Origin: Prinia subflava
Taxonomy: Eukaryota; Chordata; Aves; Passeriformes; Cisticolidae
Length of the DNA: 64,000 bases
Reading direction: 5' to 3'
NCBI RefSeq assembly: GCF_021018805.1
Contig: NW_026960612.1
Coordinates: 496,001-560,000 of the forward strand
Positions 29,148 to 61,810 of this stretch are shown here, one piece after another. Within the stretch, counting starts at the first letter, position 1; each line of letters begins with the position of its first letter. The translations under genes and the position numbers were made by a program. The notes under the pieces were generated by a model, which was not told the origin of the DNA, made no database searches, and worked only from the letters and a program-made list of their open reading frames with translations.

Positions 29148-29547
29148 TGTTGTCGAACCCTGGAAAGACTGGGGACTAGAGTAACGGGAGACCAAACCAG
29201 TATGGTTTCCAGCACGAACTCCCCTTTATTCCGCGAGATGGCCGGTTAAGTACAGAGCAGATAGTTTACAGTAGCAGGTGCATTGTGATAGGCGGTGAGC
29301 ATACAGAAGTATGTAAGCAATCTAGGATTAAGGTGGCTACGGAGATCTAGTGCCATTACCTCCATGCTGCGAGTGGCCATACCTTAACACATACCTAGCA
29401 GGAGATAAGTTTATCTGCTACTACGTATGCTGAACGTTCTGCGGCCTACTAGGCCCAGGCCTGAGGCCTAGTTTGGCCTAGTCTGGAATAGCTCAAATGG
29501 TATCTGTGAGCATATCATGCCCACGATACCTGAGAAACTCGGCCACA
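29148..29547 (-). repeat. 3' LTR of the ERVK-like provirus
   Basis: 400 bp; on the minus strand TGTGGCCGAG to CGACAACA. AATAAA corresponds to plus 29225-29230. Differs from the 5' LTR at four sites (three on the CTAGAGTAACG-to-GATGG stretch, one at CATACC[T/G]TAAC). The env reading frame ends inside it. Confidence 0.95.
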
Positions 29548-30836: not shown

Positions 30837-30913
30837 CCTAAAACCCTAACCAATAACTTATCGTGCCTCTAAGTGTCACACAATAACAGTGCAATGATAT
30901 AGTATTAAAACAG

Positions 30914-32908
30914 TCAATTTTCAGCACTCTCCGCGTCTTCTTGAGGTGCTTCAGGTAAGTCGTCGCTGTCTCTGTGAGTGTCACCGCCGGTTGGTATCTT
31001 TTCTTGTGGACACGCACGGGTAAAGCGACTCGGCACCCAGACAGGTCCTGCTTCTCCTGCAGAAACACACATATAACCGCGACCATTAAACAAGACTGGA
31101 CTGGGTCCCTGCCATTCACCCATTCGCATGTCCTTATGATATACGTAAAGTCCTGGAATTGCTTGTGGTCTCCCTTCTTTCACAGCCTGGTGGTGGATGA
31201 CAACTGCAGGCTCTTCTCGCCCTTCTGCTAGGCATAAGTAATTTAAAGTGAACAGTACTTTAGATAAACGATTGGTCACATCTAGATCATTGCTTTGCTT
31301 CTGTTTTGTGAGATACTCTTTCAGCGTCCGATGAGCCCGTTCCACAATGGCTTGGCCAGTAGGAGAGTGAGGAATCCCGGTAGTATGTTTGACTCCCCAC
31401 TTTTGCAGAAACCTAGCAACTCGTTGTCCCACATAAGCTGGACCATTGTCAGTTTTGATTTCTGCAGGCACTCCCATCACCGAAAAGCAAACAGTCAAAT
31501 GTCTCTCAACGTGCAGAGCTCTTTCCCCAGTTTGTGCTGTGGCCCAAATGAATTTGGAGTAGGTGTCAATAGTGACATGAACATATTTCAACCTTCCAAA
31601 CTCTGGGATGTGTGTTACATCCATTTGCCACAGTTCCAGGGCTTTCATTCCTCGAGGATTCGTGCCTAGGCCAAGACCTGGCCCGTGATGACTGCATTGA
31701 GGGCAGGCACGCACGATCCCCTGTGCATCGTTCATAGATATTTGAAACTGACGACGCAAGGCTCTAGCATTCTGATGGAAGTTCTCGTGGCTGTTGCGAG
31801 CTCTGACAAATTTGCTTTCAGGAGGGACATGGGCAACGCAACTGACTGCAGCATCTGCCCGTGCATTGCCTTCTCCCAAACCATTGTTGCACTGATGACT
31901 ACGAATGTGCATCACGCAAAAGGCATGCTGACGCTGTCTGAGTATACTCCTCAGTCGCAGAAATAGTTCTCTGAGGCGCTGATTCTGAGTGGTCTTAATG
32001 AGTGCATCTTCGATTCTTTGTACCACTCCAACCACATACAAAGAATCTGACACCACATTAAGAGGTTCCTTGTTCCAGGTTTGCAAAGCCCAACACACTG
32101 CTCCCAGTTCCATGGTCTGCAAGCTGTCTCCGGCTTCACTGTGGATTAAATGCTGCTTCCATTCTCCTTGCTGTTTCCAGACACACACAGCTCTTTGTGT
32201 CTTTCGGCCAGCATCCGTATAAACTGTTCTGCCTTCCACAGGTGTCATGGAACACAAAGGCTTCTCCAGCCACTGATGGCGTGCAATCAGAGTCCACATC
32301 GGACCCTTTGGCTGTCGGTTGTGAACCACACCTGTAAAACCTAACAATGCTTCTTGCAGCTCCACAGAATGTCTCAGCTTCCAGTCCAGATCTTCATTTC
32401 TGATCGGAACACTGATATCTGCTGGTTCTTCCCCATCGATCTCTAAAATCCTATCTCTCCCTTTCCTGATGAGCATGGCAAGGGCTTCTGTTCTTGTCAT
32501 AACACGACTCTTCGGCTGCACCGGCAAGAACACCCATTCAATCACCCCAGCTGTCGATTTTAACCCAGACTGGTGTTCCCCCTTTTTCTTTTGCCATTGA
32601 AAGATGATGGCAAACGGACAGGCATCTGCGTTGGAGAGGAACAGTGACAGTGGCAGGTGTTCTATGCGGCGAATGCTCCAACCCCGTTGCAGCTTCTCTG
32701 ACACCTTGACTAAGGCTCGTTGCTGTTCAGGGGTACATTGTCGAAGGCTACTGGCATCACTACTGTGTAGCCATGGTAGAAACGGTTGCAAGTCCTCATT
32801 GGTGATTCCTACAATGGGACGAACCCATTGCAGGTCTCCAAAAAGTCTCTGAGCATCATATAACGTTGAAATGTTGGTATGTAATTTTCTGTGGCCGGAT
32901 TTGTGCAC
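30914..32908 (-). pseudogene. pol: ERVK-like pol, C-terminal part (RT connection, RNase H, integrase)
   Basis: 664 codons open, entered from the RT frame only by a one-base shift. Order: RT thumb/connection (LYDAQRLFGDLQWVRP), RNase H with catalytic blocks TVYTDAG, LGAVCWAL and VVSDSLY, then integrase with the HENFHQN...CPQC zinc motif, LWQMDVTHIPEF, KTDNGPAYVG and VERAHRTLKE for the DDE triad. Removes viral RNA from the hybrid and joins cDNA to the chromosome. Internally intact; inactive only because the upstream RT is out of frame. The start given is just where the frame opens. Confidence 0.9.
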
Positions 32909-33602
32909 TCGTGATCAGCCATCCTAAGTACTTCCACGGGGCTGATCGTTGTATTTTTTCCGGGGCCATAGTCAGACCACGATGTTTTAATTGCGTGATC
33001 AGCCAGTCCAAGTCCTCTGTGGGCAGAGGCTCCTTAGTAGCAACAAGGATGTCATCGACGTAGTGATAAATCATTGCATTGGAAAAACGCTGACGAATCG
33101 GCTGCAAAGCCCAATTGACGAATATCTGGCACATGGTAGGCGAGGTACGACTTCCCTGAGGAAGAGTTACCCATTCATACCGTTGTGCTGGCGCTGCTCT
33201 GTTAATAGATGGCACAGTGAAGGCAAAGCGCGGAGTATCTTGAGGGTGGAGTGGGATCGTGAAAAAACAATCCTTCAAATCGATGATCACAGTGTCCCAA
33301 CCTTGAGGAATCATGGTCGGTGCTGGCAAGCCTGGTTGCAGAGCACCCATCGCTTGCATCTGCTCATTAACCTTACGAAGGTCATGTAGCAGTCTCCATT
33401 TCCCTGATTTTTTAGGGATGACAAAAATCGGTGTGTTCCATGGACTCACTGAGGGTCGAATGTGACCTGCTTCTAATTGTTCCTGCACCATTTGCTTGGT
33501 AATTCGCAGCCTCTTCTCTGTCATTGGCCACTGCTCAACCCACACAGGGGTATCAGTTAACCAGGTGATTTTTAAAATGGGTGGCTGCTCTGCAGTGGCC
33601 AC
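32856..33602 (-). pseudogene. pol: ERVK-like pol, reverse transcriptase fingers/palm
   Basis: 248 codons, opening in the -1 frame relative to protease. Contains SPWNTPIFVIPKKSGKWRLL, the DLKDCFFTIPLHP block, the LPQGSRTSP block and the catalytic IYHYVDDILVA. The frame ends at 32856 shortly after PWKYLGW; the true continuation is in another frame (30914-32908). A single-base indel in the A/T-rich CAGAAAATTAC stretch around 32880 would explain the break. Otherwise RT active-site residues are intact. Confidence 0.9.
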
Positions 33603-34492
33603 TAAGGAAAATGCCAGTCAGTAGTCAAAACCATCCCTATTTGGGAAAGCACATCTCTTCCTAGCAGCCCCAGAATCTCTTCATGCATTGGCACAACATA
33701 TAGATGAGCCACAACCACTTGTCCATCTTCAAAGATGATCCGAATAGGATCTGCACTTATTGAGGGAACAGTCAGGCCTCCTACGCCCACAACGCGGGTA
33801 TAGGGGGATGTCAAAGGCCAATGAGAAGGCCAATGTAATTTGTTAATTAAAGATATGTCTGCGCCGGTGTCTGGAAGTGGTTCCACGCCAATAATTTCAT
33901 CGCCTCGTTGCAGCTTCACTGCAATCCGTGGCCGCTCGTGTAAATCCACTGTAAGGAAAACACTGTGTCCCATAGATCCAAAGCTCCCAGCTCCGCCTTC
34001 AGCTTTCGCAGGCTGCTTTTGGGACTGACGACGTGGCAGGATGTTCTCAAAGGGGATGATCTGAGCAATCTTGCTCCCCTTTGGGATTGTCACAGGAGGC
34101 TGCAGGGCATAAACCATTACTTTTAACTGTCCAGTGTAATTAGCATTGATGACTCCTGGCACCACCATAATACCCTGTTTGCTCGTGGAGGCTCCTCCCA
34201 ATATCAAACCTCCAGCTGAGGAAACTGTATTATAGATGGGTTCAGAGACATCAGTTGGGATTAGAGTGACTTCCTTATCTTGCAAGGTGACTTCTTCTGC
34301 TGCTGTTATGTCCACACCAACACTTCTCCACGCAGCAGGTCTGGTCCGGTTTAATGAGTCGTTTTTGGGGTCTGGTGGGCTGAGGCATTGATTTGTGTCT
34401 TGGCGCGCTGCCTCGGCGCGCTGGCCGTGAAGTTTCCCTGTTTCCTGCAGATCTCTGTGGCATGGGTGTCCACATTGCAGTGGTGACACCAA
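33602..34492 (-). CDS. pro: ERVK-like dUTPase-protease (pro)
   Basis: 296 codons open in the -1 frame relative to gag; translated as a Gag-Pro frameshift product, so the first ATG shown is not a real start. Residues about 55-150 form a dUTPase domain (WRSVGVDI, GLILGGASTSKQG, VPGVINANYTG), which would hydrolyse dUTP. The aspartic protease follows, with LPDTGADISLI as active site and LLGRDVL near the end. It would cleave the polyproteins during maturation. Pol overlaps its end by a further -1 frame. Confidence 0.9.
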   Translation of the reverse strand: MVSPLQCGHPCHRDLQETGKLHGQRAEAARQDTNQCLSPPDPKNDSLNRTRPAAWRSVGVDITAAEEVTLQDKEVTLIPTDVSEPIYNTVSSAGGLILGGASTSKQGIMVVPGVINANYTGQLKVMVYALQPPVTIPKGSKIAQIIPFENILPRRQSQKQPAKAEGGAGSFGSMGHSVFLTVDLHERPRIAVKLQRGDEIIGVEPLPDTGADISLINKLHWPSHWPLTSPYTRVVGVGGLTVPSISADPIRIIFEDGQVVVAHLYVVPMHEEILGLLGRDVLSQIGMVLTTDWHFP

Positions 34493-36624
34493 ACAGGCTT
34501 TTGGCAGGTCCGCCTGAAATGACCCATTTCACCACAGCGGTTGCACTGGGACTTTGCCGCTGATTTTTTGTTATTAGTAAAACGGTTAAAGGGCTTTCCC
34601 GTCAATGCAGCTGCGATAACATGTCCCTGTTGCTGCATTGCGTTTTGCATTGCCGCTGTGAAAGCTGCTGTTTGGTTGGACTGTTCTGCTCTTGCTGCTC
34701 TCACCAACATTTCGTCCACGCCACAGCCTTGAGGGAGGGAGGCCAGGATGGTTTTCATGCGTGCGTTGGCGTTCTCAAATGCCAGAGAACGAAACAGATG
34801 GTCTCGCACCTCGTCAGGCAGATCTGGGGCATCCCTCAATGCCGTAGAAAGACGATCAATAAATTGAGCAAACGATTCAGTGGCTCCCTGTTTGACGTTG
34901 GCATAGGATGGAGGCTTCTTTTTGTCTGGCACCAACAGCAAAGCTCTGTAGGCTAGTGACTGGGAGAGTTGATGGATTTCGATGGGAAAAGTCAGCTGTA
35001 CATTCGTCGTGGCATAGGCTCCTTGGCCCGTCAGCATGTCCGGCTGAATCCCATAAAATGGATCTCCCACTATTTGATGCCTGTTGGCTTCCTCGGTTGC
35101 CAGGCGTCTCCACTCTCTTTCAAAAATGAGAAACTGAGATGGCGTGAGCAGAAGTGCTGCAATGTTAGAACTGTCAGCAGGGCACAAGAGGTCAGCAGTG
35201 AAGATGTATTGGATAATACTTTTAGAAGCTTCCGCACGAATTCCATACTGGCTAACTGTCTGCTTTGCAGATTGCAGTACTTTCCATTCATGCGGTTGCC
35301 ATCTGGCAACGTTCTGCTCAATCACCACAGGGCACGCTATAACATTGGCTGCTTCAAAATCCTTATCGAGGATGGCATGTTTTTTAACTTCGGCCCAGCG
35401 GTTCAGCAGCGGATCAGTTTGGTTGGCAGGCAGCGCCATCTGCTGGGCATTGGATGGCAATGCCTGCTGGCTCTGTATTGATGACAGAGGTTGTATGGTA
35501 CATGGTTTCTGCGGGAATGTTTTGGATAATTCAAATGTCCTTTGTTCCAGCTGACTTTGCCGGTTAGAGAGCTTAGCAAGCTCTGCTATAATTTGCTGCA
35601 GCTCCGTTGACCTCTGCGGCTTTTCCGGCGCTTGCGTTGCACAGCTGTTATCTGATTCCAAAACTTCCTCGTCCGAGTCAGATTCTGGCAGAGGACAGTG
35701 AGATGCTCGTGGATGGGTGGCGGGTCCCACTGATGCAGGCTGTGGGGGCGCAGGGATCTCAGGTTGAATCGAATTCGCGTTGTCCGATCCGGTCATGGGC
35801 GCCGCCATGTTCTCTGTTTTTGTTTTTGTCATGTGGGCAGCTGACGTCAGCTCCCGTTCCGGTGGGGAGGGGTTTGGCTCCGCTCCGCCGGTGGCACCGC
35901 CTCTGAGTCCACCTCCTTGCTGCGTCACGTGTGCCCGCCCTGCGCCGCTGCCGGTCCCGCCTGCCTCCTCTTTCGCCACGCCCCTCGGGTCTGGCGGCTG
36001 GCTCGTCTCCTCCCCCACGCCATTCTCGCCGAACCGCGGCAAGGACACTTCCGGCCTCTTGCTCGGTCTCTCAACCGCATGGTTGGCTACGTCTACCACA
36101 TCACGGAGGGAGGAACAGAGAGGGGCCGCATTCCCTTTCACCGGATGCGTGGAATTAATTCCGAAAAATCTCGCAACCCTGGATACTTTTTTCCGCTCTT
36201 CCGCTTGGGAAGGAACGGTCTCCGGTTCAGGAGAGCAAGGGGCCGTTCTCTCCAATGCGGAAATCGCGGCTTGGGCAGCTCTGCGCTCCGCGGCAAAGGT
36301 TTGTAGCGTATTTATAATTTTCTTCCACGTGACGCCTAACTCTGAACAGAGTTTTGCGTCTTTTCCCTGTGAAACTACCGAGTCCCACAGTAAATCTCCG
36401 ATCTCCTTCCATTCTGTCTCGCTGAACAAAAGCGAGGGCTGCTGTAACTTTCCTTTCTTTTTAGCCCATTGGGCCAGCTGATTTATATCAGAATCCCTGA
36501 TCTTTTCGCCCCGTTTCGAGACAATGGACGCTAACAGCTGCGTGGCAGCTATATAATCGCGTTCCGTGAGTGAATCCATCCGCGCCGCTGCTCTTACCTT
36601 CTTTCCACTGACAGCAGGTGGCAC
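34351..36624 (-). CDS. gag: ERVK-like Gag polyprotein
   Basis: 757 codons, open. The likely start is the first ATG or MDSLTERDY at residue 16. MA-like N-terminus, then a long acidic/proline-rich middle, a CA with the major homology region (QGATESFAQFIDRL), and NC with two CCHC zinc knuckles (CNRCGEMGHFRRTC and CHHCNVDTHATEIC). Structural protein of the particle. The 3' end overlaps pro by 142 nt, and a -1 frameshift heptamer lies inside the overlap. No internal lesion seen. Confidence 0.92.
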   Translation of the reverse strand: MPPAVSGKKVRAAARMDSLTERDYIAATQLLASIVSKRGEKIRDSDINQLAQWAKKKGKLQQPSLLFSETEWKEIGDLLWDSVVSQGKDAKLCSELGVTWKKIINTLQTFAAERRAAQAAISALERTAPCSPEPETVPSQAEERKKVSRVARFFGINSTHPVKGNAAPLCSSLRDVVDVANHAVERPSKRPEVSLPRFGENGVGEETSQPPDPRGVAKEEAGGTGSGAGRAHVTQQGGGLRGGATGGAEPNPSPPERELTSAAHMTKTKTENMAAPMTGSDNANSIQPEIPAPPQPASVGPATHPRASHCPLPESDSDEEVLESDNSCATQAPEKPQRSTELQQIIAELAKLSNRQSQLEQRTFELSKTFPQKPCTIQPLSSIQSQQALPSNAQQMALPANQTDPLLNRWAEVKKHAILDKDFEAANVIACPVVIEQNVARWQPHEWKVLQSAKQTVSQYGIRAEASKSIIQYIFTADLLCPADSSNIAALLLTPSQFLIFEREWRRLATEEANRHQIVGDPFYGIQPDMLTGQGAYATTNVQLTFPIEIHQLSQSLAYRALLLVPDKKKPPSYANVKQGATESFAQFIDRLSTALRDAPDLPDEVRDHLFRSLAFENANARMKTILASLPQGCGVDEMLVRAARAEQSNQTAAFTAAMQNAMQQQGHVIAAALTGKPFNRFTNNKKSAAKSQCNRCGEMGHFRRTCQKPVWCHHCNVDTHATEICRKQGNFTASAPRQRAKTQINASAHQTPKTTH
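34432..34438 (-). promoter_or_regulatory. gag-pro -1 ribosomal frameshift heptamer
   Basis: The minus strand reads G GGA AAC in the gag frame (codons for Gly-Asn in QGNFTAS). A -1 slip gives GGG AAA CTT, which is exactly the GKL found in the pro frame (ETGKLHGQ). GGGAAAC is a classical retroviral slippery sequence. A downstream RNA structure was not modelled. Confidence 0.88.
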
Positions 36625-45878: not shown

Positions 45879-45884
45879 GGATCC

Positions 45885-46209
45885 TGTGTGGGTGATAGCT
45901 AGGGACAGGCGCTCGGAAGATCACGTGATGTCACGGGAAGATAAGGACCCTCCCCCCGTCCCTTCGGTGGTGGCCCCTCCTAGCCCCATTAGCTTCCCAC
46001 CAACCACTGACCTTTAGATCCTTTGCCCTCCCACTGACATAGTAGAAGACCCTTTAGACTATTTAACCCCATGTGTAATACAATAAACCGCCATTTGCCG
46101 TCCACCACATTGGTGTCAGCGTGTTAGTGGCCCGAGTAGCTCGAGGACGTCGAGCTGCCGTGCTGACTCTTTGAAACCAGGTCGCCATTGCCTCATATCG
46201 AAGGCAACA
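45885..46209 (+). repeat. 5' LTR of the gag-env provirus
   Basis: 325 bp, TGTGTGGGTGATAGC to GAAGGCAACA. U3 has a CACGTG E-box (45922-45927) overlapping a CRE-like TGATGTCA, TATTTAA at 46060-46066 and AATAAA at 46082-46087. These suggest an intact pol II promoter and poly(A) signal. Confidence 0.95.
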
Positions 46210-46212
46210 TTC

Positions 46213-46231
46213 TGGTGCCGAAAGCCCGGGA
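46213..46231 (+). promoter_or_regulatory. primer binding site, tRNA-Phe-like
   Basis: TGGTGCCGAAAGCCCGGGA, three bases after the LTR. From general knowledge this is a tRNA-Phe type site with one extra G. Confidence 0.6.
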
Positions 46232-46343
46232 ACAAGAAAAACGCTCGGGAGTCGGGATTTTTCGCCTGGACAGGAGCAGCGGCCGGGGCAGGCCAAAGGA
46301 ACTGACCCTCGGCGGGGGAGACGTCCCCGGACCAGCGAGACTC

Positions 46344-49300
46344 ATGGAGGCAATCGCGAAGGTCGTAAGTGTAATTCACAGACAGTGGGAGATTGAGTGC
46401 AAGCCCAGAGATTTACAACTTGCTTTGGCAAGATTACTGGAGCTTGGGGTGATAGAGCGCCCAGTAGAAATCCTCCATTCGGAGGTATGGGGGAGGTGTA
46501 CACTCGCGCTGGCCGAAGATACGGAATCCACAGGGAGCGGGAAACACCTTAAAGCATGGGGGAGGGTCAAGCAAAGTTTACGGAAAGCGCTGGAAGAACA
46601 AGAGACCTGGAGTGCCGCCCGTGTGTGTTTGCTGGCCACTCCTAAGCTGGGAGTGGGGGCCACCACGCAAACGGCGTTTGAAAATGATTTATCCGAGTGC
46701 GAGAAGCCGCGGGAGCCAAGCACGCTTCCCCCCTCCCGGAGCCCGAGCCCAAAGTCCCCGGTGCCCTCAGGGAACCCCCCGACCCCCACCCCGAGCCCGT
46801 CGGCTTCCCCCCCGCCCGCGGAGCCTTCCCGGGCATCCGGAGGTCCCTCCTCAGTCCCCTTGCCGTCGATCGGTGGTTCGGTACCCGAGGCGCGGCAGCG
46901 CGGGCGATTTTTCTGGCAAGGACTGGCCGAAGAGGCCAGAGACGCCGAGCACGTGGCTCAGGAGAGCACGCGGCCGGCACCGCCACCGTACGGGTTTGAA
47001 AATGGCGCCGGCGGCAGCGGGGAGGGGCGGGGTCTGAACGTTTGTGGTGGGGAGAGCCCGGAGCCGTGGGTGTGCGCCAGTGCGCATGCGCAGGGGAAAG
47101 CCGGGGAAGAGGGAGAGAAGTGCGTGCTCGGACAGGAGCCGCGGGCTTCTGCTGGCGCGTGCGCGCAGCAGGAGGGGAGGGGGTGCATGTTCGGAGCGGC
47201 GCCGCGAGTCCCCGCAGGCGCGTGCGCGCCGGGAAGCGGCGGGGAAAGCGCGCCCGGCCCGGCGCCGTGGGCTTCCGCGGGCGCGTGCGCGCCGGGAGGC
47301 GGTGGGGAAGGCGCGTTCGGGGAGGCGCCGCCGTTCCCCGCGGACGTGCACACGCGGGAAAGCCGCGGAGAGCGCCCGCGTAGTTCGGAGCCGTGGTTTT
47401 CCGCGGACCCGCATGCACGGGACAGCGGCGAGGAGCGCGTGCGCGCCTCGGGGCCGCGGTTTCCCGCAGGCACGCACGTGCGGGAGGGGCGCGAGGAGCA
47501 CGTGTCCCGTCGGGAGCTGCGCTCAGCACTGCCAGCATTTAGGGGAGAGACCTCGCCCCGCAAGAGGCAGGGCAAGCCCAGGGGGCGAGAGCAGAGCCAC
47601 CCCCGAGAGGGGGGGCGAGAGCGGAGCCACCCCCGAGAGGGGGGGCGGGAGCGGAGCCACCCCCGAGAGGGGGGGCGGGAGCGGAGCCACCCCCGAGAGG
47701 GGGGGCGGGAGTGGAGCCACCCCCGAGAGGGGGGGCGGGAGTGGAGCCACCCCCGAGAGGAGGGGCGAGGCCGGAGCCGCACTGAACGACACTCAAACCC
47801 AGAAGTGAGCTGGCAGTGTGTCTCTGACTCCTTATCAGACAGTACCGGCGGCAGCAGCTCCGGAGAGCAGACAGAGAGTGATTGGGATTCAGAAACAAAG
47901 AGAGCAGAACCAACACGATTTAAAATGAAACCTAATAAAGCTTTCAGCCACTCCAAAAAGAGTTTACAACATGAGCCAGCCCAGGTCACTGACTGGGGAA
48001 AAATAAAAATAGCCTGTGCTGAGTGGACACCGGCTTCCACAGTGAAAGCATTCCCAGTAAGGGTTGCTAGAATAGAGGACAACCAACAAAAAATATACAC
48101 GCCAGTAAATCCCAAAGACATACAAACAATTGTAAAAGCGATTCCAGAGAAAAGGAACGAACCGAGAGCACCCAAGTGTCCCACGCCGGTGAGACCCAGG
48201 CAACAACGATGCTTTTGTATGATTTTGCTATTGGGGCTGGTTGCCAGAATGCAAGCCAGCCCAGACTATTATCCTCATCAACCATTCAGGTGGGTCATGA
48301 AACACCTTTCAAATGACAAGGTGCTCAAAGAAATCACCACACCGGGCACCCCATCCTTTGTGTTTCACATCACTGATCTGTTCCCGGGGCGACCAAAGAT
48401 AGACCGCCACGCCCCACACCTCATGCACATGTACATGGCCTACTGGTGCCCAGCCTCTAACCCAGGGAAAAGGTACTGCAACTACCCGGGGTGGGGCCAC
48501 TGTGGTTACTGGGGCTGTGAAACCATTGTTACAGATGCCAGACCATCAGGATATGGGTGGGACCCACAGGAACCCGATAAATTCTTACAGTTCTCCTGGG
48601 CACCCACCGGCTGTAACAAACCCTTCTTCAGGTCAGGGTTCTATCGAAACTATTATCAGGACCCTACACGCCGGACATGCACTGATTATAACATGACTGT
48701 TTTACAACCAGATCACCCTAGCTGGGCCACAGGCAGGACGTGGACAGTAGTCCTCCAGTCACCAAAAGAATGGGTGAATGTACAGATTATCAGGCTCCAG
48801 CCGCCAGTGCCCCGAGCGGTCGGACCCAAAGAAATTATTAGAGACTCACAAAAAGGGAAAAGCACAATCCACCCCAAATCTTTGCCCACAAAGGTCACCA
48901 ATACCCCGACCAGCTATGCAGATGCCTTTCAGATAGACCACTTAGCCGTGTCTGACCCGAATCCCATTTTCCGCATGCTAGAAGCTACCTTTTCATCTCT
49001 GAATGAATCCAACCCAAACCTAACCAATCCATGCTGGCTCTGTTACGATGTTAAACCTCCTTTCTATGAAGGAGTTGCTCTAAACATCCCATTCAGTTAT
49101 TCCACAGCAGATGTCCCCCACCAGTGCAGGTGGGACACTCCCCGCAGAGGAATCACCTTGAGTCAAGTCACGGGTCAGGGAAAATGCTTTGGCAGTGCAA
49201 CTTTAGCCAAGCAGAAGGGAAATGTTTGCACCGAAGTTGTCAAACCTGACAAGAAGATCAATAAGTGGGTGATCCCAGCTGCATCCGGAATGTGGGTTTG

Positions 49301-50012
49301 TCAACGGTCTGGGGTGAGTCCTTGTGTGTCCCTGGCCAAATTCAATGACTCTGATGATTTTTGTATCCAAGTTCTGATTGTTCCTAGGGTCTTGTACCGC
49401 TCAGACGAGGAGGTGTGTCAACTTTCCGAGGAACCGGGCCGGCTCCACAAGCGAGAGATAATAACAGGGGTAACCATCGCGATGCTGCTCGGCCTGGGAG
49501 CAGCCGGTACAGCCACAGGTGTCTCAGCCCTCGTGACCCAACACCAAGGACTTTCTCAATTACAAGTGACTATCGACGAGGACTTGCAGAGGATCGAGAA
49601 ATCCATCTCCTTCCTGGAGAAATCGGTTTCCTCACTTTCAGAAGTCGTCCTGCAGAACAGGCGGGGACTGGACCTCCTGTTCATGCAACAAGGAGGCTTG
49701 TGTGCCGCCTTGAAAGAAGAATGCTGTTTTTATGCTGATCATACAGGAGTCGTTAGAGACTCCATGGCAGAGCTCCGAGATAGACTGGCTCAGAAAAAGA
49801 AAGACAGGGAAGCCCAACAGGGCTGGTTCGAGTCCTGGTTCAATCAATCGCCATGGCTCACCACCCTAATTTCCACATTGATAGGTCCATTGGCAATGTT
49901 ACTCTTAGCTCTCGCCATTGGACCATGCCTGTTAAACAAGCTGGTCACATTTATTCAAACACGCCTAGAACGGGCCAACATTCTATTTGTAGGACAGCAA
50001 CAATTGTTGTAA
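46344..50012 (+). CDS. Gag-Env fusion polyprotein of the young provirus
   Basis: The frame opens at 46188 in the LTR, but ATG 46344 (MEAIAKVVSVIH) is the likely Gag start: 1222 residues. Residues about 1-110 resemble a class II/alpharetro-type MA. Then a long proline/glycine/arginine-rich region with a PPPY late motif (RPAPPPYGF), six GGRERSHPRE repeats, and a CA N-terminal fragment (TVKAFPVRVARI, YTPVNPKDIQTIVKAIPEK). This joins directly, in frame, to a gamma-type Env: signal-like MILLLGLVARMQA, SU with a CWLC motif (NPCWLCYD), cleavage region RLHKR before the fusion-like IITGVTIAMLLGLGAAG, LQNRRGLDLLF block, CX6CC (CAALKEECC), membrane span and short tail. Cleavage site lacks Arg at P4. Env would normally be made from a spliced mRNA. 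No stop or frameshift seen; expression unknown. Confidence 0.9.
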   Translation: MEAIAKVVSVIHRQWEIECKPRDLQLALARLLELGVIERPVEILHSEVWGRCTLALAEDTESTGSGKHLKAWGRVKQSLRKALEEQETWSAARVCLLATPKLGVGATTQTAFENDLSECEKPREPSTLPPSRSPSPKSPVPSGNPPTPTPSPSASPPPAEPSRASGGPSSVPLPSIGGSVPEARQRGRFFWQGLAEEARDAEHVAQESTRPAPPPYGFENGAGGSGEGRGLNVCGGESPEPWVCASAHAQGKAGEEGEKCVLGQEPRASAGACAQQEGRGCMFGAAPRVPAGACAPGSGGESAPGPAPWASAGACAPGGGGEGAFGEAPPFPADVHTRESRGERPRSSEPWFSADPHARDSGEERVRASGPRFPAGTHVREGREEHVSRRELRSALPAFRGETSPRKRQGKPRGREQSHPREGGRERSHPREGGRERSHPREGGRERSHPREGGREWSHPREGGREWSHPREEGRGRSRTERHSNPEVSWQCVSDSLSDSTGGSSSGEQTESDWDSETKRAEPTRFKMKPNKAFSHSKKSLQHEPAQVTDWGKIKIACAEWTPASTVKAFPVRVARIEDNQQKIYTPVNPKDIQTIVKAIPEKRNEPRAPKCPTPVRPRQQRCFCMILLLGLVARMQASPDYYPHQPFRWVMKHLSNDKVLKEITTPGTPSFVFHITDLFPGRPKIDRHAPHLMHMYMAYWCPASNPGKRYCNYPGWGHCGYWGCETIVTDARPSGYGWDPQEPDKFLQFSWAPTGCNKPFFRSGFYRNYYQDPTRRTCTDYNMTVLQPDHPSWATGRTWTVVLQSPKEWVNVQIIRLQPPVPRAVGPKEIIRDSQKGKSTIHPKSLPTKVTNTPTSYADAFQIDHLAVSDPNPIFRMLEATFSSLNESNPNLTNPCWLCYDVKPPFYEGVALNIPFSYSTADVPHQCRWDTPRRGITLSQVTGQGKCFGSATLAKQKGNVCTEVVKPDKKINKWVIPAASGMWVCQRSGVSPCVSLAKFNDSDDFCIQVLIVPRVLYRSDEEVCQLSEEPGRLHKREIITGVTIAMLLGLGAAGTATGVSALVTQHQGLSQLQVTIDEDLQRIEKSISFLEKSVSSLSEVVLQNRRGLDLLFMQQGGLCAALKEECCFYADHTGVVRDSMAELRDRLAQKKKDREAQQGWFESWFNQSPWLTTLISTLIGPLAMLLLALAIGPCLLNKLVTFIQTRLERANILFVGQQQLL
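46359..46370 (+). promoter_or_regulatory. candidate splice donor six to seven codons into gag
   Basis: AAG|GTC|GTAAGT: either AAG|GT at 46361/46362 or C|GTAAGT at 46364/46365. A donor just inside gag is the arrangement known for alpharetroviruses, in which env mRNA borrows the gag start. An acceptor upstream of the env signal region (about 48190-48215) would be needed; none is proved. Confidence 0.5.
47585..47764 (+). repeat. six tandem 30-bp repeats within gag
   Basis: Units start at 47585, 47615, 47645, 47675, 47705 and 47735 (gcgRgagYRgagccaccccc) and encode GGRERSHPRE with small changes. The array is in frame, so copy number changes by ten residues at a time. A decayed unit follows at 47765. 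Confidence 0.95.
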
Positions 50013-50168
50013 ACCAAACTGTGAACACTGCCAGTTGCAAAGTTCTGCCTAGTCAGCCTCACAGAATTTACTCAAGTTTTCCAAACCCCTTCTTTTTTTT
50101 TTTATCAAGTTACTACCTTGTACCCCTTTTCTCCAATGCCTCTAACTACCTCATTTTTTTTTTTTGTG

Positions 50169-50184
50169 AAAAGGGGGGGGGAGA
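50169..50184 (+). promoter_or_regulatory. polypurine tract of the gag-env provirus
   Basis: AAAAGGGGGGGGGAGA directly before the 3' LTR TGTGTGG. T runs at 50093 and 50155 lie between env and this tract. Confidence 0.9.
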
Positions 50185-50509
50185 TGTGTGGGTGATAGCT
50201 AGGGACAGGCGCTCGGAAGATCACGTGATGTCACGGGAAGATAAGGACCCTCCCCCCGTCCCTTCGGTGGTGGCCCCTCCTAGCCCCATTAGCTTCCCAC
50301 CAACCACTGACCTTTAGATCCTTTGCCCTCCCACTGACATAGTAGAAGACCCTTTAGACTATTTAACCCCATGTGTAATACAATAAACCGCCATTTGCCG
50401 TCCACCACATTGGTGTCAGCGTGTTAGTGGCCCGAGTAGCTCGAGGACGTCGAGCTGCCGTGCTGACTCTTTGAAACCAGGTCGCCATTGCCTCATATCG
50501 AAGGCAACA
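50185..50509 (+). repeat. 3' LTR of the gag-env provirus
   Basis: 325 bp, identical to 45885-46209 as far as can be read. Followed by the GGATCC duplication at 50510-50515. Confidence 0.95.
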
Positions 50510-50515
50510 GGATCC

Positions 50516-53268: not shown

Positions 53269-55049
53269 ATGGATTTTGAACAAATAGCTTTCAGAAATAT
53301 CGAAAAATGTGCTTTCAGTTACCTGTTCACCAAAAGAGTATATTAAAACAGCTTCAAGATCTTTTAATTAATGTTAGAATTTCCAAAAAGCTGCAAAAAA
53401 AATTTGTGCGCTGGCTAGCAACTGAGTTGCCAGAGGCTGACCTCCTGCAAATAGATACTGTATCATTTTGGGATAACAGTGATCGTGTACTTACAGAGAA
53501 AGTGCAGGATAATGATCAAACTGCTTCTCTATTCCCATATTTTTGCAAGCGCGTAAACAGCTTCTAGAGTTACAAAAAAACAGCCAGCCACAGAAAACTT
53601 CCCCATGTAACCCCCTCTCCGACCCCCCGACCCTCCCTTATACCCTGGTTTACCATCCTCCCAGTACCTCTATAACACAGCAGGTTTTTCTCGGGCAGAC
53701 TCCTCCAGGTGTGGGATGCCTCTCCAGGGCTCTGGCCATGCTGCAGGTCCCCAGGGAGCCACACTCCCCGTGCCAGACAATAATGGCGCTGACCAGGTGC
53801 TGATTCCTTCTTCCCATAACCCCTTCTCCCCCCCGATCTCCACCCCCACTCCATACTCCTTCCCCAATCCCTTTGTCCCTTTGGCAGCCCCACCCCACCC
53901 CTCCTCCCCTTGCCTCCCTCCCAGCTGCCGCTGCAGCAGTGAACGGGGCGGGCCCGTTTCGCCTTACAGCCACAGTGGGGGCCATGATTGCCTCATAGTG
54001 GGGGGACGGGAGCAGTCTATTCTGCAGACCCAGGACAGAGGGAGAGAGCCTCTACTTCCCAACCCCCAAGGGATTGCAAACACTGTACCTCCTATGTCCC
54101 CAGACACTGGGAGACCAGCAGAAATTTTAAGACCTTTGGCAAATGTAGGTGAAAGCATTTTCTCTGTTTCTCCTGTCACATATGTGGGTAAAAAGCATGG
54201 AACCAGACAATACCAGCAACTTTCCTACTAGGACAAGAAAGAACTTGGCAAAATACAATGTGAATTTGGTAGATCTAGTGCAATCTTTAAGGGCATGTTT
54301 CCAGCCACATTTAATTCTAATGAAATGGTGCCCAGTGACATCAAAGACTTTTTTAGATGTCTGTTATCTCCCTCAGAGTATGATCTGTGGGAAGGTATGT
54401 GGAAAAGAGCTTTAAAACATTATTACATGAGATTCATCAACCCCCTAATGCAGCTAAAGGCACTGAAGGACATGATATTACACTGGAACACCTGTGTGGT
54501 GAAGGTGTCTGGCATTGTCCTGAAAAACAAACTCGAGTGTTATCCAAGCCAATTTTACTTAGGATTAGTGGTGTTGCAGAGAAAATGTTTTATCAGCTAC
54601 CAACAATGGAAGGGAAGGGCAGCTATGTCAATATTAAACAATTTGCTACAGAGAATTTCTTGCAGTTTGTTGATCGTCTGAGGACACAGGTGGAACAAGT
54701 ACAAGACCCCGTGGTGCAGACAGAACTGATTAAGGAGATGGCTCAAAGGAATGCTAATGAGACCTGTCGTAGAATTATTCTTAGCCTTCCCCTAGAACTT
54801 CCGCCTAATCTGTCCCAGATGATAGAGGCTTGTTCAAGGAGGGCGGAAATGTTCTACGCATCTGAAAGAAATCCTGGACCTGCACACCCACAACCTACAG
54901 CACTTGCAGTACCAAACCCAAACAGTCAACCAATGTCAACAGACCAAATGAAACGTATCATCTGCCTCTGCTGCAAGAAACCAGGACACTTTGCCAGAAC
55001 TTGCCCTCAGAACCAGAAGCAGAAGAAATTCAACAAACAAAAAAACTGA
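53269..55049 (+). pseudogene. gag: class II ERV gag, broken
   Basis: ATG 53269 (MDFEQIAFRNIEK) opens MA, with a frameshift within about 25 codons; MA continues in the frame of 53307 (KLQKKFVRWLATELPEAD). A proline-rich p-region (53600-54150) follows, then CA (SPSEYDLWEGMWKRALKHY at 54320-54420), another frameshift, the major homology region (QFATENFLQFVDRL) and NC with a single zinc knuckle CLCCKKPGHFARTC. Structural polyprotein, dead through at least three frame changes. Confidence 0.82.
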
Positions 55050-55165
55050 ATTTACAGCGCGTACCCGCTGGTGATACTACAACGCGCAAAGATATAAATG
55101 TAGTGGGACTCACATTGGCAAAAGCCTCTCTTTAAAATAAAAGGGGGGAGGGCAGGTAACACGGT

Positions 55166-55890
55166 GTGGGGGTGCAGAAAAATGTAAATGTTAAATGTTC
55201 AACTCACAAGGTTTGGCAGCCACCAGGCCGATTCAGGCTTGTGACTACCAAAGGTTTTCATTTCAGATCTACTGAGTGGATGGTCATAAAAGTGGACTTG
55301 TCAAACATCTCACAGGACCTGACGGTTTATCACATGGGATTGGACAGTGAGTATTTTGTTATTGGGGACACAGCACACACACCCTTGGAGATTGAGATAG
55401 CTCCCATGACCATTAAGGGAAAGATAATAGGCCTCATGTTGTTGGAACGCTGCACGCACCCACCCTTTTATCTCGTAGAGGGGCAAATTCTTGCCCAAGC
55501 CATTCCGGTTCCAGCAGAGATCACAGCAGGTGGAAAATCACCACAAGTCTACTGGGCAGAGGTGGTGGGAGAACCTAAACCCTCTATGGCATGCAACATT
55601 GCTTGTGGGTAACAGCGCCTCCTGGTGGCAGGGGTGTTAGACACAGGTGCAGACATTACTGTAGTCCCGCAAAGCATGTGGCCATCAAACTGGGAATTAC
55701 AACCTGTGGCTGGCAAACTTCAGGGCATAGGAATAATCACATTGGTAAGGATTTCAAAAAACGTCATGCAAATTGAGGGACCTGACAGAAAGGTGTCCAT
55801 CCTTTCGTAGCAGATTATAAGGCCCCAGTGTGGGGAAGAGACACCATGTCTCAGTGGGGAGTCCAATTGGTCATTCCTAAGACACCCCAG
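55166..55890 (+). pseudogene. pro: class II ERV pro region, broken
   Basis: The first 148 codons (55166-55612) sit where a dUTPase-like N-terminus is expected, but no diagnostic dUTPase motif is clear. After a stop, the aspartic protease core GVLDTGADITVVP follows at 55630, then a stop near 55808, with the C-terminal PVWGRDTMSQWGVQL in another frame at about 55830-55880. Confidence 0.75.
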
Positions 55891-55895
55891 GATTT

Positions 55896-58650
55896 TTGCA
55901 AATAGCCACTGTGGAGCGCCCTACCCAGAAGTTAAAGTGGTTGGAAAACACCCCAAGGTGGGTAGCACAGTGGCCTTTGAGTAAAGAAAAACTCAAGGCG
56001 CTTGAGGAGCTCATGGAAGAGCAATTGGCTCAGGGACACATTGTAGAGACAGCAAGCCCTTGGAATTCCCCAGTCTTTGTAATAAAGAAACCGGGGAAGG
56101 ACAAGTGGAGGTTGCTCCATGATTTACGAGAAATTAACAAAATTGTAGAAGACATGGGACCTCTCCAACCAGGGATGCCCACTCCAACAATGCTCCCTCG
56201 AGATTGGCCATTGGCTGTCTTAGACATCAAGGACTAGTTTCTTCCAAATTCCGTTGAAACCCTGAAGATGCCCCATGGTTTGCATTCTCGGTTCCCACTG
56301 TTAATAGACAAGCCCCAATGAAGTGTTACCACTGGAGAGTTCTTCCACAGGGTGTGAAATAGTCTCCTTTCATATGCCAATATGTAACCTCATTACTGTC
56401 TCCGATATGCGCCAAGAGAAAAGAAGCCATCATCCTTCACTACATGTATGATGTGCTAGTGTGTGCCCCAAATGACTCTATACTCCAACACACGCTTGAC
56501 CTAGTGGTTAAAGTTTTAACCTCTGCTGGATTTCAATTACAGGAGGACAAGGTTCAAAGGATGCCACCTTGGAAGTACCTGGGTTTGCAAATCAGTGCAA
56601 GGACTGTTGTTCCACAGAGCTTAGAAATTGGTTGCAATCCAAAAACTCTAGCAGATCTCCACTCCCTGTGTGGGTCTTTGAATTGGGTAAGACCCTGGCT
56701 AGGCCTCACAAATCAAGATCGAGAACCCCTCTTCAATTTATTGAAGGGGGAGAAGGAGCTGATGTCTCCCAGGGAGCTGACCCCAGAGGCGAAGACAGCA
56801 ATTGAAAAGGTACAAAAAGCCTTGTCAGAGAGACAAGCTCACCGATGTGAGCCAAAGGTGCCTTTCCAGTTCATTGTTCTAGGAAAATTACCACATCTGC
56901 ATGGTTTGATTTTTCAATGGATCGAGGAAGAGAGAGATTCACTCTTGATCATAGAGTGGGTCTTCATTGCTCACCAAAGGTCCAAGACCATCACAGAGCC
57001 ACAGGAGTTAATAGCTCAGCTGATTCGGAAGGCCAGGGTAAGAATGTGTGAATTGGCTGGTTGTTACTTTTCATGTATTCACCTCCCGGTCAGACTTTCA
57101 GAGGAAGGAAAGAACTCTCCTGAGAGACTGACCAAAGAGATGTTTGAGCATTTGCTGCAGAGTAATGCCAGTCTCCAATTATCTCTGGACAGCTACAGGG
57201 GACAAATATCAGTTCATGCCCCGTCCCACAAGTTGTTCAGTGAGGAATTCCACCTCATTCCTCATGAGAAAAGGAGTCGGAGACCACTCAAAGCTCTCAC
57301 AGTCTTCACAGACGCATCTGGGGCTTCCAGCAAGTCGGTGATGACTTGGAGGAACCCACGGACTCAGCACTGGGAAGCTGATGTTGAGTTTGTGGAGGGA
57401 TCCCCCCAAGTGGCTGAACTGGCCGCAGTGGTAAGAGCTTTTGAGAAGTTCTCAGAACCAATCAATTTGTTAACCGACTCTGCCTATGTGGCGGGAGTAG
57501 GTTCCAGAGCGGAGCAGGCTGTGCTCAAAGAAATAGAGAATGAACATCTCTTCAGGTTGCTTTCAAAGCTAATTTATTTGGTTTCTCATCGACAGCACCC
57601 GTTTTACGTGATGCATGTGAGGTCACACACTGATTTGCCAGGTGAGATCGCAGAGGGGAATCGCCAGGCAGACTCCCTTGCAGCACCAGTTGAAAAGGCA
57701 CATCTCCCTGATGTCTTCCAGCAGGCAAAACTGAGTCACCAACATTACCATCAAAATGTGCCAGCCCTGATCCGACAATTCCAGCTAACATGGAGCCAGG
57801 CTCGAGCCATTGTAGGTACCTGTCCCAACTGCCAGCTCCAGGCCATGCCATCGATGGGCATGGGGGTTAACCCCAGGGGCCTGGGCAGCTGTGAGGTATG
57901 GCAGACAGACATCACACACATTCCTGGTTTCGGTCACCTCAAATATGTTCATGTGAGCATTGACACATATTCGGGTGCAGTGTATGCCTCTGCCCACGCA
58001 GGAGAAAAATCCATACATGCCAAGCAGCACCTAGTGCAAGCCTTTGCAGTGTTGGGAATTCCAAAAACAGTCAAAACTGATAACGGCCCAGTGTATGTGT
58101 CCAAGCAGTTCCTAGAATTTATCCATCAGTGGGGAGTGGAGCATAAAACTGGCATCCCCCACTCCCCCACAGGTCAAGCTGTGATTGAACGTGCACACCA
58201 GACGCTGAGACAGGTTTTGGCTAGGCAGAATACCTCGGCTTTGTGGATGACTCCACAGCAGAAGCTCTGCAAGGCCATGTTCACCATCAATTTTCTGAAC
58301 TGTTCATTTGAAAACATGAGCCCACCTGTGGTACGTCATTTTAACAGGGGTAATCATTTTAAATTGTCTCAGCATCCACCGGTTTTGATTAGGGATCCTG
58401 AAACTTGGGAAACCATAGGTCCCTATGAGCTTGTGACCTGGGGTCGTGGCTATGCATGTGTGGCTACTCCCTCAGGCCCTTGGTGGATTCCCCAGAAGTG
58501 GGTGAAACCTTTTGTCCCCAAAAATCCAGCTCCGGCAGAAGGGGATGAGAAACAGGTGACTGATGCTTCGAAGAGAAGACGCCGCCGGATGGAAGAGAAA
58601 GAACCTCCCCAGGTGTGGATTCCTTCTGGCAGAAACAGGAACCTTTTAAC
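55896..58650 (+). pseudogene. pol: class II ERV pol, copy 1
   Basis: RT starts at 55896 (KLKWLENTPRWVAQWP, SPWNSPVFVIKKPGKDKW); a stop at 56235-56237 and a frameshift follow in the palm. From 56444 the frame is open to the end: YLGLQIS, RNase H blocks (TVFTDASG, ELAAVVRAFE, LLTDSAYVAG), integrase zinc motif (HQHYHQN...CPNC), VWQTDITHIPG, KTDNGPVYVS, VIERAHQTL and a basic C-terminus. The RT catalytic motif reads YMYD instead of YMDD (codon TAT at 56447-56449). Integrase looks intact; RT is dead. Confidence 0.9.
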
Positions 58651-58708
58651 ATGTTTTAAAAATGTTTATTTTTCCCTTCTAGAGAAAACCTACCTCCCAC
58701 TCAACCCT

Positions 58709-58945
58709 ATGATGAACCCCATCCAAGTTGTCATCCTGCTAATGTTGAACAGTCTGGTAGCTGCATGGATCATCCCTCAGCCGGGTCAGAACGTCTGGGT
58801 GACCCTGGCACAGACACTTCAGCAAGAAAACATATGTTTGTCCACTGCAGCAGCTAAGAACCCTATGTCCACCTGTCTGGTAGGAATTCCATTGCAGGCT
58901 GGAGAATTTCCAGCAAGTTTGGACAAATACAAGTCCAACGAACGT
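58709..58945 (+). pseudogene. env: class II ERV env N-terminus, fused to protease C-terminus
   Basis: The env start (MNPIQVVILLMLNSLVAAW, signal-like) and early SU (GQNVWVTLAQTLQQENICLS) are in the same open frame as pol. Near 58945 the protein switches to PFVVDSGYTIWGRDV, the protease C-terminus of a second element. The env block parallels NMWVTWAKQTKQDSFCLS at the start of the env at 30836. The rest of env is missing. Confidence 0.8.
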
Positions 58946-61810
58946 CCATTTGTTGTCGATTCTGGTTATACCATCTGGGGAAGAGATGTCATGTCCCAAT
59001 GGGGGGTTGAGTTACAAATTCAAAAAAAAAAACCCCAGGATTTTTAGTTGCAGCCACTGAAGAGCGCCCCATCTAAAAACTGAATTGGCTGACAGATACT
59101 CCACTCTGGCTGGACCAGTGGCCACTGAACAAGCAAAAATTGAAGGCGCTCAACGAGCTTGTAGAGGAGCAACTAGCAAGAAGCCACATTGTCAAAACTA
59201 ACAGCCCATGGAATTGTCCCGTGTTTGTCATCAAAAAACCACGGAAAGACAAGTGGCGTCTCCTCCACAATCTATGAAAAATCAATGAAGTCATTGAGGA
59301 CATGGGGTCCCTTCAACCGGGTATGCCACCCCCTTCCATGCTCCCCCAAAATGGGGATCTAGTCATCATCGATATAAAAGATTGTTTCTTTCAAATTCCC
59401 CTAGACCCAGCCGATGCTCCGCAGTTTGCTTTCTCTGTTCCTTCAATCAATAGGGAAGCTCCGTGGAAGCACTATCACTGGATGGTTTTACTGCAAGGGA
59501 TGCAAAACCGTCCAACTATTTGTCAGTGGTACGTTGCCAAAATACTGTTCCCAGTGTGTGCCAAAGCAGAAGCAGCTGTCATTCTTCACTATATGGATGA
59601 CGTGCTAGTGTGTGCTCCTAACAGTGACATGCTTACAGAAGTACTTGATGAAACTATCACTGCTCTGACCGCTGCGGGATTTGAGTTGCAGCAAGAAAAA
59701 GTGCAGAGGCTGCCTCCTTGGAAGTACTTAGGGCTTGAGATTGCCAACCGAACAATAACACCCCAAAAGGTGGTGATCAATGATCGGCCTAAGACTTTGA
59801 GAGACCTCCAACAGCTTTGTGGGTCCTTGAATTGGGTCAGGCCCTGGCTAGGCCTCACTATAGAAGACTTAACCTCCCTCTTCAATTTGTTAAAGGGGGG
59901 AGAAGAGTTAGATTGTCCGGGGGCTCTGACTCAGGAGGCCCAGCAAGCATTAGAGAAGGTACAGTCAGTAATGTCAAGTCACCAAGCCTATCGTTGCTGG
60001 CCAGACCTCCCATTCAATTTCATCATCCTGGGGAAATTACCACACTTCCATGGGCTCATTTTTCAGTGGGACAAAAACCAGAAGGACCCTCTCTTGATCA
60101 TAGAGTGGGTGTTCCTTGGTCACCAAGCGTCCAAAAGGATCGCCAAACCACAAGAGTTGCTGGCCCAGCTGATCAGCAAAGCTAGGCTCAAAATGTGACT
60201 GCTAGTGGGGTGTGAGTTTACATGCATTCATGTACCAATTAAATTGTCAACCGGATCATTCACAAATGAAGCTTTAGAGCAATTGCTCCTTGAAAATGAA
60301 ATGTTACAGTTTGCTCTAGACAGCTACCCAGGGAAAATTTCAAATCATTGTCCTGGCCACAAATTGTTCAACTCTGAATTTAATTTGATCCCAAAAGAAA
60401 AGCAAAGTAGTAAGCTTCTCAAAGCCTTGACAATTTTCACAGATGCGTCCAGAAAGTCTCACAAGTCTGTAATGACTTGGAAAGATCCTCAGACTCAGCA
60501 GTGGGAAACAGATGTAGAGACAGTTGAGGGTTTCCCTTAAGTTGCTGAGTTGGCCGCAGTAGTCAGGGTCTTTGAGAAGTTCTCTGCACCAATTAATATT
60601 GCTACTGATTTGGCCTATGTAGCAAGGTTAGTGTGAAGAGCTGAAAATGCAGTTCTCAAAGAAGTTTCAAATCCAGTCATTTTTAACTTGCTCTCAAAAC
60701 TAATCCATCTAGTCTCCCACCGAGAGCAACTGTATTACCTAATGCATGTAAGATCACACACAGATCTTCCAGGTTTCATCGCAGAGGGCAACCGCAGAGC
60801 AGATGCCCTGGCCACTCCTGTGCAGCTAGTTGGCCTTCCTAACATCTTCCAACAGGCCAAGTTAAGCCATCAACAGTTCCATCAAAATGTTCCAGGTCTG
60901 ATCCGCCAATTCCGTCTAAGGCGAGATCAAGCCTAAGCAATCATAGATACTTGTCCAAACTGCCAAAAGTTCTCCCTGCCATCGTTAGGATCAGGAGTTA
61001 ATCTGAGATGGCTTGGCAGTTGTGAGGTGTGGCAAACAGATGTCACCCACATACCCCAGTTTGGAAAGTTTAAAAACGTCCACGTTTCAGTTGATACCTT
61101 CTCTGGTGCAGTTTATGCCTCAGCCCACACAGGGGAGAAGACCACAGATGCACAGAAACACCTTGTGCAGGGCTTCTCCATGTTGGGTATCCCCAAAATG
61201 ACCAAAACTGATAATGGTCCAATTTATGCCTCCAAGGAGTTCAGTAAACTCCTGCAAGAGTGGGGGGTTGAACATTGCAAGGGTATCCATTACTCCCCCA
61301 CCGGTCAGGCAGTAATAGAAAGAACCCATCACACTCTCAAAGAAAACCCTAAAACAACAGAGGGGAGATGTCAAAATCAACAGTCTACACCGACTTTGTA
61401 AAGCTCTCTTTACAATGAACTTTCTCAACTGTTCATTTGAAAATCTCAACCCTCCTGTTGTCAGGCATTTCAACCAGAGTCAGTGGTTGAAGTTTGAAGA
61501 GAGACCACCAGTCCTGGTGAAAGACCCTGAGACCTGAAAGGTCCAGGGGCTCTTTGATTTGGTCACTTGCGGTCGAGGATACGCCTGTGTGTCCACCCCC
61601 TCAGGTTTGAAATGGGTCCTGCAAAAATGGGTCAAACCTTATGTTCCACCTAAAGGAAAAGACACCCTAAATGCAGATACACCTTCACCTTCCCTACCCA
61701 ATGATGTAGCCGTTGCTTCCTCTCGAAGACGACGCAAAATAAGTAGAGAACTCGAATCCTGTGTTTTCCCTGATCCAGAGTGTTTAATAAGTTCTCTGAT
61801 GAGTGTTTAA
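58946..61810 (+). pseudogene. pol: class II ERV pro end and pol, copy 2
   Basis: Protease C-terminus (WGRDVMSQWGVELQI, stop at 59047), then RT from about 59052. The palm is open at 59302-60198 with intact HYMDDVLVCAPN. Stops occur at 59073-59076, 59275-59278, 60196, 60538, 60634, 60934 and 61399 by translation; one or more frame changes lie near 61340-61430. RNase H (TIFTDAS), integrase (HQQFHQN...CPNC, VWQTDVTHIPQ, KTDNGPIYAS, VIERTHHTL) and the basic end (SRRRRKIS) follow in order. Clearly decayed, and more so than copy 1. Confidence 0.88.

Follow-up and report, generated by a model that had tools for sequence, protein, structure and literature searches.

The genome of a songbird, the tawny-flanked prinia Prinia subflava, contains at least 19 proviruses that lack pol and share one gag-env deletion junction. 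One of them lies at positions 45885-50509 of the 64,000-nucleotide stretch analysed here (the window; positions 496,001 to 560,000 of contig NW_026960612.1, RefSeq assembly GCF_021018805.1), where a single open frame runs from a class II-type Gag start to a gamma-type Env. Comparison of the copies suggests that they probably relied in trans on pol-bearing relatives for packaging, reverse transcription and integration; the long terminal repeats (LTRs) of these relatives are 94.8-100% identical to those of the window provirus. An initial annotation of the window had proposed a recently mobilised, non-autonomous lineage with an intact Env, and this proposal is borne out by the number of copies with the junction, their distinct target-site duplications (TSDs) and the LTR shared with pol-bearing relatives.

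Pol-less copies and their pol-bearing relatives

A 221-base query spanning the junction was run against the genome, and 40 of 201 candidate places were scored, so that the counts are lower bounds. The query matched at least 19 places over its full length or without its first base (96-100% identity), at least 18 places on the env side only and at least three on the gag side only. Among the 18 pol-less copies other than that of the window, 17 have LTRs on both sides (two of these with a partial 5' LTR), and the 3' LTR of one was not found; flush TSDs of 5-6 bp, all different, flank 11 copies and an offset TSD flanks one more, the search for TSDs having found none in five. The paired LTRs show no differences in five copies, window included, and 1-20 differences in the rest, one copy with a partial LTR being left aside. 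The frame is complete from start to stop in six of the 19 copies, window included; in the other five, start, middle and stop lie in one frame, and offsets in length are multiples of 30 bases, the repeat unit. A one-off deletion is ruled out: the genome search that the initial annotation had proposed found the same junction in at least 19 copies, which sit at different sites and mostly have TSDs of their own. It is scarcely credible that collapsed reads produced the deletion or the LTR identity as an assembly artefact: the window region is indeed rich in endogenous retroviruses (ERVs), but the junction occurs on many contigs with different flanks and TSDs.

Thirteen of the 18 places matched on the env side only were examined as pol-bearing copies; C26:183596 was examined for env and LTR only, and four places at 90-91% identity were excluded. 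Continuous pol adjoins env in 12 of the 13, and both LTRs are present in 12 of the 13; among the 12 copies with continuous pol, 11 have LTRs on both sides, in the identity range given above. L033 carries an internal pol deletion. A query with a Hirundo pol protein yielded 44 scored pol regions among 5640 candidates, 20 of them free of stops in the aligned part. The pol-bearing relatives with matching LTRs are likely, on the evidence of sequence, to be the helpers of the pol-less family, which is possibly still mobile.

G-to-A hypermutation, mostly in GG context, is seen in the env part of seven of 30 copies, namely L017 and L023-L027 (pol-less) and L038 (pol-bearing); in L024, 41 of 49 env differences are G to A, 36 of them in GG. 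The hypermutated copies carry stops in the env frame. The pattern looks like APOBEC editing, and strong editing of zebra finch LTR elements is attributed to earlier work by others in the available part of PMC6523648. LTR-based ages were rejected for edited copies because editing distorts them (in L027, 19 of 20 LTR differences are C/T changes). The same LTR family is also found on another class of elements without pol (L114-L119), in which gag through capsid is joined to little beyond the transmembrane unit; in the six copies examined, the identity of the env part is about 86% in three and about 98% in three.

Constraint on Env and origin of the junction

Constraint on env, which the initial annotation had proposed to assess by dN/dS across copies, is indicated by the ratio of nonsynonymous to synonymous differences per site (pN/pS). 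In the six open pol-less copies the ratio over 480 env codons is 0.21 (0.11-0.37), with pN at 0.6% and pS at 2.8%; for scale, their 3' LTRs differ by 1.7%. It is 0.22 (0.14-0.36) in ten little-edited pol-less copies, a set from which edited copies, picked by eye, were excluded, as they were from the gag and env trees described below. The ratio is 0.42 (0.33-0.57) when all 19 pol-less copies are taken, edited ones included, and 0.42 (0.25-0.71) in four pol-bearing copies that have the surface unit. The matrix part of gag gives 0.34 (0.15-0.73) in the ten little-edited copies. The env ratios support the view that Env was constrained during the history of these copies, part of which may belong to their pol-bearing parents. 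The likeliest reason for the constraint would be a role of Env in reinfection or its incorporation into partner particles.

The window copy itself says little about selection. Its frame is open, as had been pointed out initially, but this was discarded as a sign of selection at the site, because only 0.17-0.74 stops are expected to have arisen after insertion. The two LTRs are identical over 325 bp (0 mismatches) and the 6-bp TSD, GGATCC, is perfect, both as first described; the description "very young" holds in so far as the LTRs are identical, although identity can do no more than set a maximum age, about 1.4-2.4 million years (95% bound, computed with assumed substitution rates). A host-coopted Env or restriction gene, by which the bird would use the Gag-Env protein (for example to block related viruses) and selection would act on the host, is improbable. 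It would account for the constraint on Env and sits well with the annotation of a 1222-residue gene model and an isoform X2 at the locus. However, a syncytin-like co-opted Env is expected at a single conserved locus, whereas Prinia has at least 19 copies, and 13 of these no longer carry the full frame; a young multi-copy family argues against fixed co-option at one locus, and the window copy is too young to reveal selection at its own site.

The junction lies in a 15-nt imperfect repeat at which the gag and env parents differ at two sites. At this repeat, gag of the pol-bearing copies reads GCGATTTCAGAGAAAGGGATGC in 10 of 11 readable copies (in the gag search of the 13, L080 gave no capsid-part match and L076 a partial one), and five of 11 of their env leaders read GTTCCAGAGAAAAGGAACG, the rest deviating slightly from it. 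The crossing point between gag and env leader is identical in all 19 pol-less copies, and because all cross at the same point of an imperfect repeat, a single origin is favoured. In the gag tree, the 13 pol-less copies that remain after removal of edited copies group with one of 10 pol-bearing copies (support 87/89; two state changes).

Several observations weigh against a family that arose once and spread with a constrained Env. No complete frame is present in 13 of the 19 pol-less copies. In the six open copies, the pN/pS of the matrix part (0.60; 0.20-3.04) is indistinguishable from 1, as is that of the capsid stub (0.81, 0.27-2.71, in the ten copies; 0.72, 0.25-2.98, in the six). The sign of constraint in env could stem from recombination with pol-bearing copies. 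The pol-bearing intruder in the gag tree is L033, with its internal pol deletion, and the approximately unbiased (AU) test gives p 0.054. In the env tree, pol-less and pol-bearing copies are intermixed (six state changes; AU p 0.144). Fixed differences between the two kinds amount to two junction bases in the gag pieces and none in env. The annotated isoforms used in the analysis of splicing below are database models.

The mixing in the env tree and the lack of fixed env differences would also follow if the 15-nt repeat were a hot spot at which reverse transcription of pol-bearing copies repeatedly gave rise to pol-less ones that do not make up a lineage, and the annotations of Lonchura and Passer include gag-env joins at other positions. 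Such recurrent deletion is unlikely: in all 19 copies the crossing falls on the same few bases despite the imperfection of the repeat, and the gag tree keeps the 13 pol-less copies together with a single pol-bearing exception. A mixed env tree is, moreover, as expected if co-packaged RNAs recombine. One origin followed by spread of the pol-less family is accordingly favoured, though not proven.

Structure, splicing and a possible route of spread

The features of the window provirus are listed in Table 1. Although it lacks pol, the provirus retains LTRs, primer site and polypurine tract. The absence of protease, reverse transcriptase and integrase, stated in the initial annotation, agrees with a tblastn search with pol-containing relatives, which matched only the gag and env parts of the element; likewise, the single frame of about 1222 codons from a class II-type Gag start to a gamma-type Env, with CWLC, CX6CC and a membrane span, was located in full.

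Table 1. Features of the window provirus, with positions in the window
Feature	Position	Strand	Remark
Target-site duplication, left copy	45879..45884		GGATCC
5' LTR, 325 bp	45885..46209	+	TATTTAA at 46060, AATAAA at 46082
Primer binding site	46213..46230	+	15/18 bases as in a tRNA-Phe site
Single gag-env open frame	46344..50012	+	1222 codons from first ATG
Matrix domain, alpharetrovirus-like	46344..46631	+	Match to alpharetroviral matrix chain 5kz9, E 7e-5
Likely env splice donor, GTAAGT after gag codon 7	46365..46370	+	Present in 18/18 other pol-less copies
PPPY late-domain motif	46980..46991	+
Six 63-nt repeats in gag	47129..47506	+
30-nt repeats in gag, 6.6 copies	47581..47778	+
Capsid N-terminal stub, about 60 residues	47982..48152	+	Capsid homology ends here
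Gag/env junction in 15-nt imperfect repeat	48142..48156	+	Identical crossing point in 19/19 copies
Hydrophobic core of Env signal peptide, now internal	48210..48260	+
Env surface unit	48261..49454	+	CWLC at 49032-49043
Likely intron within env	48290..49129	+	Absent from isoform X2; exactly missing in one relative, acceptor 5 nt upstream in four
Env transmembrane unit	49455..50009	+	CX6CC at 49701-49727; membrane span at 49854-49955
Polypurine tract	50169..50184	+
3' LTR	50185..50509	+	Same as 5' LTR
Target-site duplication, right copy	50510..50515

In the Gag half, the matrix reaches only 13.6 bits with Pfam Retro_M, under the cut-off, and a repeat-rich p region separates it from the capsid stub; a predicted matrix structure (pLDDT, the predictor's confidence score, 55) was not used. 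The Env half matches Pfam TLV_coat (E 4e-115), with no match to Avian_gp85 at E 0.1 in the Pfam profile search. It retains 19 of 19 conserved cysteine columns and deviates at nine of 202 columns that are invariant in 13 relatives. A Prinia subflava protein annotated as "serine/arginine repetitive matrix protein 2-like isoform X2" (SRRM2-like; P0017) is identical to the gag part, and an annotated 1222-residue protein of the same species is identical to both the gag and env pieces; the SRRM2-like gene is therefore a misannotated provirus. Host-like database names are borne by the proviral Gag proteins P0017, P0123, P0130 and P0132 (SRRM2-like, skin secretory protein xP2-like, RBBP6-like). No relatives of the element were found among the viral contigs searched, and the single match in an Rfam search, far under the gathering score, was judged to be chance. 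Elsewhere in the window, a class II provirus at 29493-36624 (-) has frames for gag, dUTPase-protease, reverse transcriptase and integrase, and its env matches avian gp85; two more class II pol stretches with a gag piece are closely spaced at 54387-61341 (+), in an ERV-rich region.

Splicing of a gag start onto an env exon is the way in which env of avian leukosis virus (ALV) is expressed. Gene models suggest the same in songbird relatives: the zebra finch Env model P0003 starts with MDAMARI, resembling MDAIARV, with which Gag begins in zebra finch P0124, and continues into the env exon, and in Sylvia P0128 MEALAK directly precedes that exon. An acceptor, ttacag/GACATG, lies ahead of the env exon in 11 of 11 relatives inspected. 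The window provirus and its kin are without it because the deletion removes it, and production of Env within a Gag-Env polyprotein is therefore predicted. Joined gag-env gene models with other junctions are annotated in Sylvia, Grus, Passer and Lonchura (P0127, P0131, P0129, P0024, P0051); the joins of P0127 and P0131 fall at the env exon start and look spliced, and P0129, P0024 and P0051 may be deletions.

Within env, isoform X2 exits at HQPFR and re-enters at WDTPRR, which corresponds to removal of the likely intron in Table 1. The donor ranks first of 178 by splice-site score, the scores being usable as ranks only. The motif is present in 24 proteins, and in two of them, isoform X2 and a Passer gene model, the sequence departs from Env at this point. 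The surface unit is missing from six of 13 pol-bearing copies and from none of the 19 pol-less copies (p 0.0019), or from five of 12 against none of 19 when L033 is left out for its pol deletion (p 0.0047). With 40 of 79 candidates scored, the surface unit was found at 27 places with an identity of at least 95%, and 19 of these are the pol-less copies. One of the six losses is the exact removal of the intron, four have the acceptor 5 nt upstream and the sixth is a longer join. Copies that correspond to spliced RNA with either of two acceptors are best explained if spliced genomes were reverse transcribed, and in five of the six relatives the loss looks like removal of the intron by way of reverse-transcribed spliced RNA, a candidate route for envelope loss in ERVs.

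These losses bring to mind a two-part ERV, the genes of one virus being split between two mutually dependent kinds of defective provirus: pol-bearing copies that shed the surface unit and pol-less copies that carry Gag-Env under purifying selection. We regard such a system as possible but doubtful. A strict form of it was not adopted because the pol-bearing L031 and L032 keep both pol and the surface unit and have identical LTR pairs; each has one stop in the pol alignment.

Spread in trans of a family with a single origin, the preferred reading, could have proceeded as follows. In an ancestral element, a template switch of reverse transcriptase at the 15-nt imperfect repeat, from the capsid gene to the env leader, would have deleted pro, pol, the env splice acceptor and what remained of gag without disturbing the frame, and the resulting copies would then have multiplied by means of enzymes supplied in trans. 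Full-length LTR-driven RNA would be packaged by partner Gag through common 5' sequences, copied by partner enzymes and integrated with a 6-bp duplication. Translation from the gag start is predicted to yield a polyprotein with Env as its C-terminal part, the internal signal peptide directing Env into the membrane and matrix and PPPY remaining on the cytosolic side. The Env sequence may have been kept because Env aids the spread of the family, for example by germ-cell reinfection.

Comparison with known systems

The Env of EAV-HP is of the avian gp85 (ALV-J-like) kind. The available portions of the publications cited here indicate that a pol-less gag-env layout is already known in birds. The EAV-HP blue-egg provirus of chicken lacks pol, has identical 313-bp LTRs, a 6-bp TSD and a single predicted gag-env protein, and is thought to need a helper (PMC3747184). 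The Prinia element resembles it in the lack of pol, identical LTRs, 6-bp TSD and one predicted gag-env protein. It differs from this galliform family in its gamma TLV_coat type of Env, and goes beyond it in offering a family of at least 19 copies with pol-bearing relatives in one assembly, together with a measure of constraint. The ALV-like LTR-gag-env-LTR elements of ptarmigan and prairie-chicken (Galliformes; 3.9-5.1 kb) have the same pol-less gag-env layout, and no family or selection analysis of them appears in the available text of that source (PMC10820513).

Within a songbird clade, the window Env clusters with those of zebra finch (support 99/94). The F in TgERV-F denotes a tRNA-Phe primer site, and the primer site of the window provirus agrees with tRNA-Phe at 15 of 18 bases. 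As far as a review in its available part describes it, TgERV-F is a songbird alpharetrovirus with a gamma-type env (PMC10536682); by that description the Prinia element is like it in combining an alpha-like gag with a gamma-type env, and unlike it in that the window copy has no pol.

The literature searched, from which subscription papers were mostly absent, did not describe, in its accessible parts, any songbird family united by one gag-env junction, any pol-less lineage with a constrained Env or any partners of such a family from which the surface unit had been spliced out. With few protein changes in Env despite the lack of pol, the Prinia family raises the question of why a viral hitchhiker retains its envelope. 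It lets ordinary sequence data test whether selection can keep a gene on a hitchhiking element, and allows a test of whether defective proviruses can share the work of one virus.

In the cattle family ERVK[2-1-LTR], as presented in the available part of its description, non-autonomous copies spread beside competent copies of the same LTR clade, and defective copies dominate new insertions (PMC10924933). The defective Prinia copies likewise stand alongside pol-bearing copies of the same LTR. Unlike the cattle D-type copies, which have no intact genes, six of the Prinia copies have retained the open frame, and their Env is constrained.
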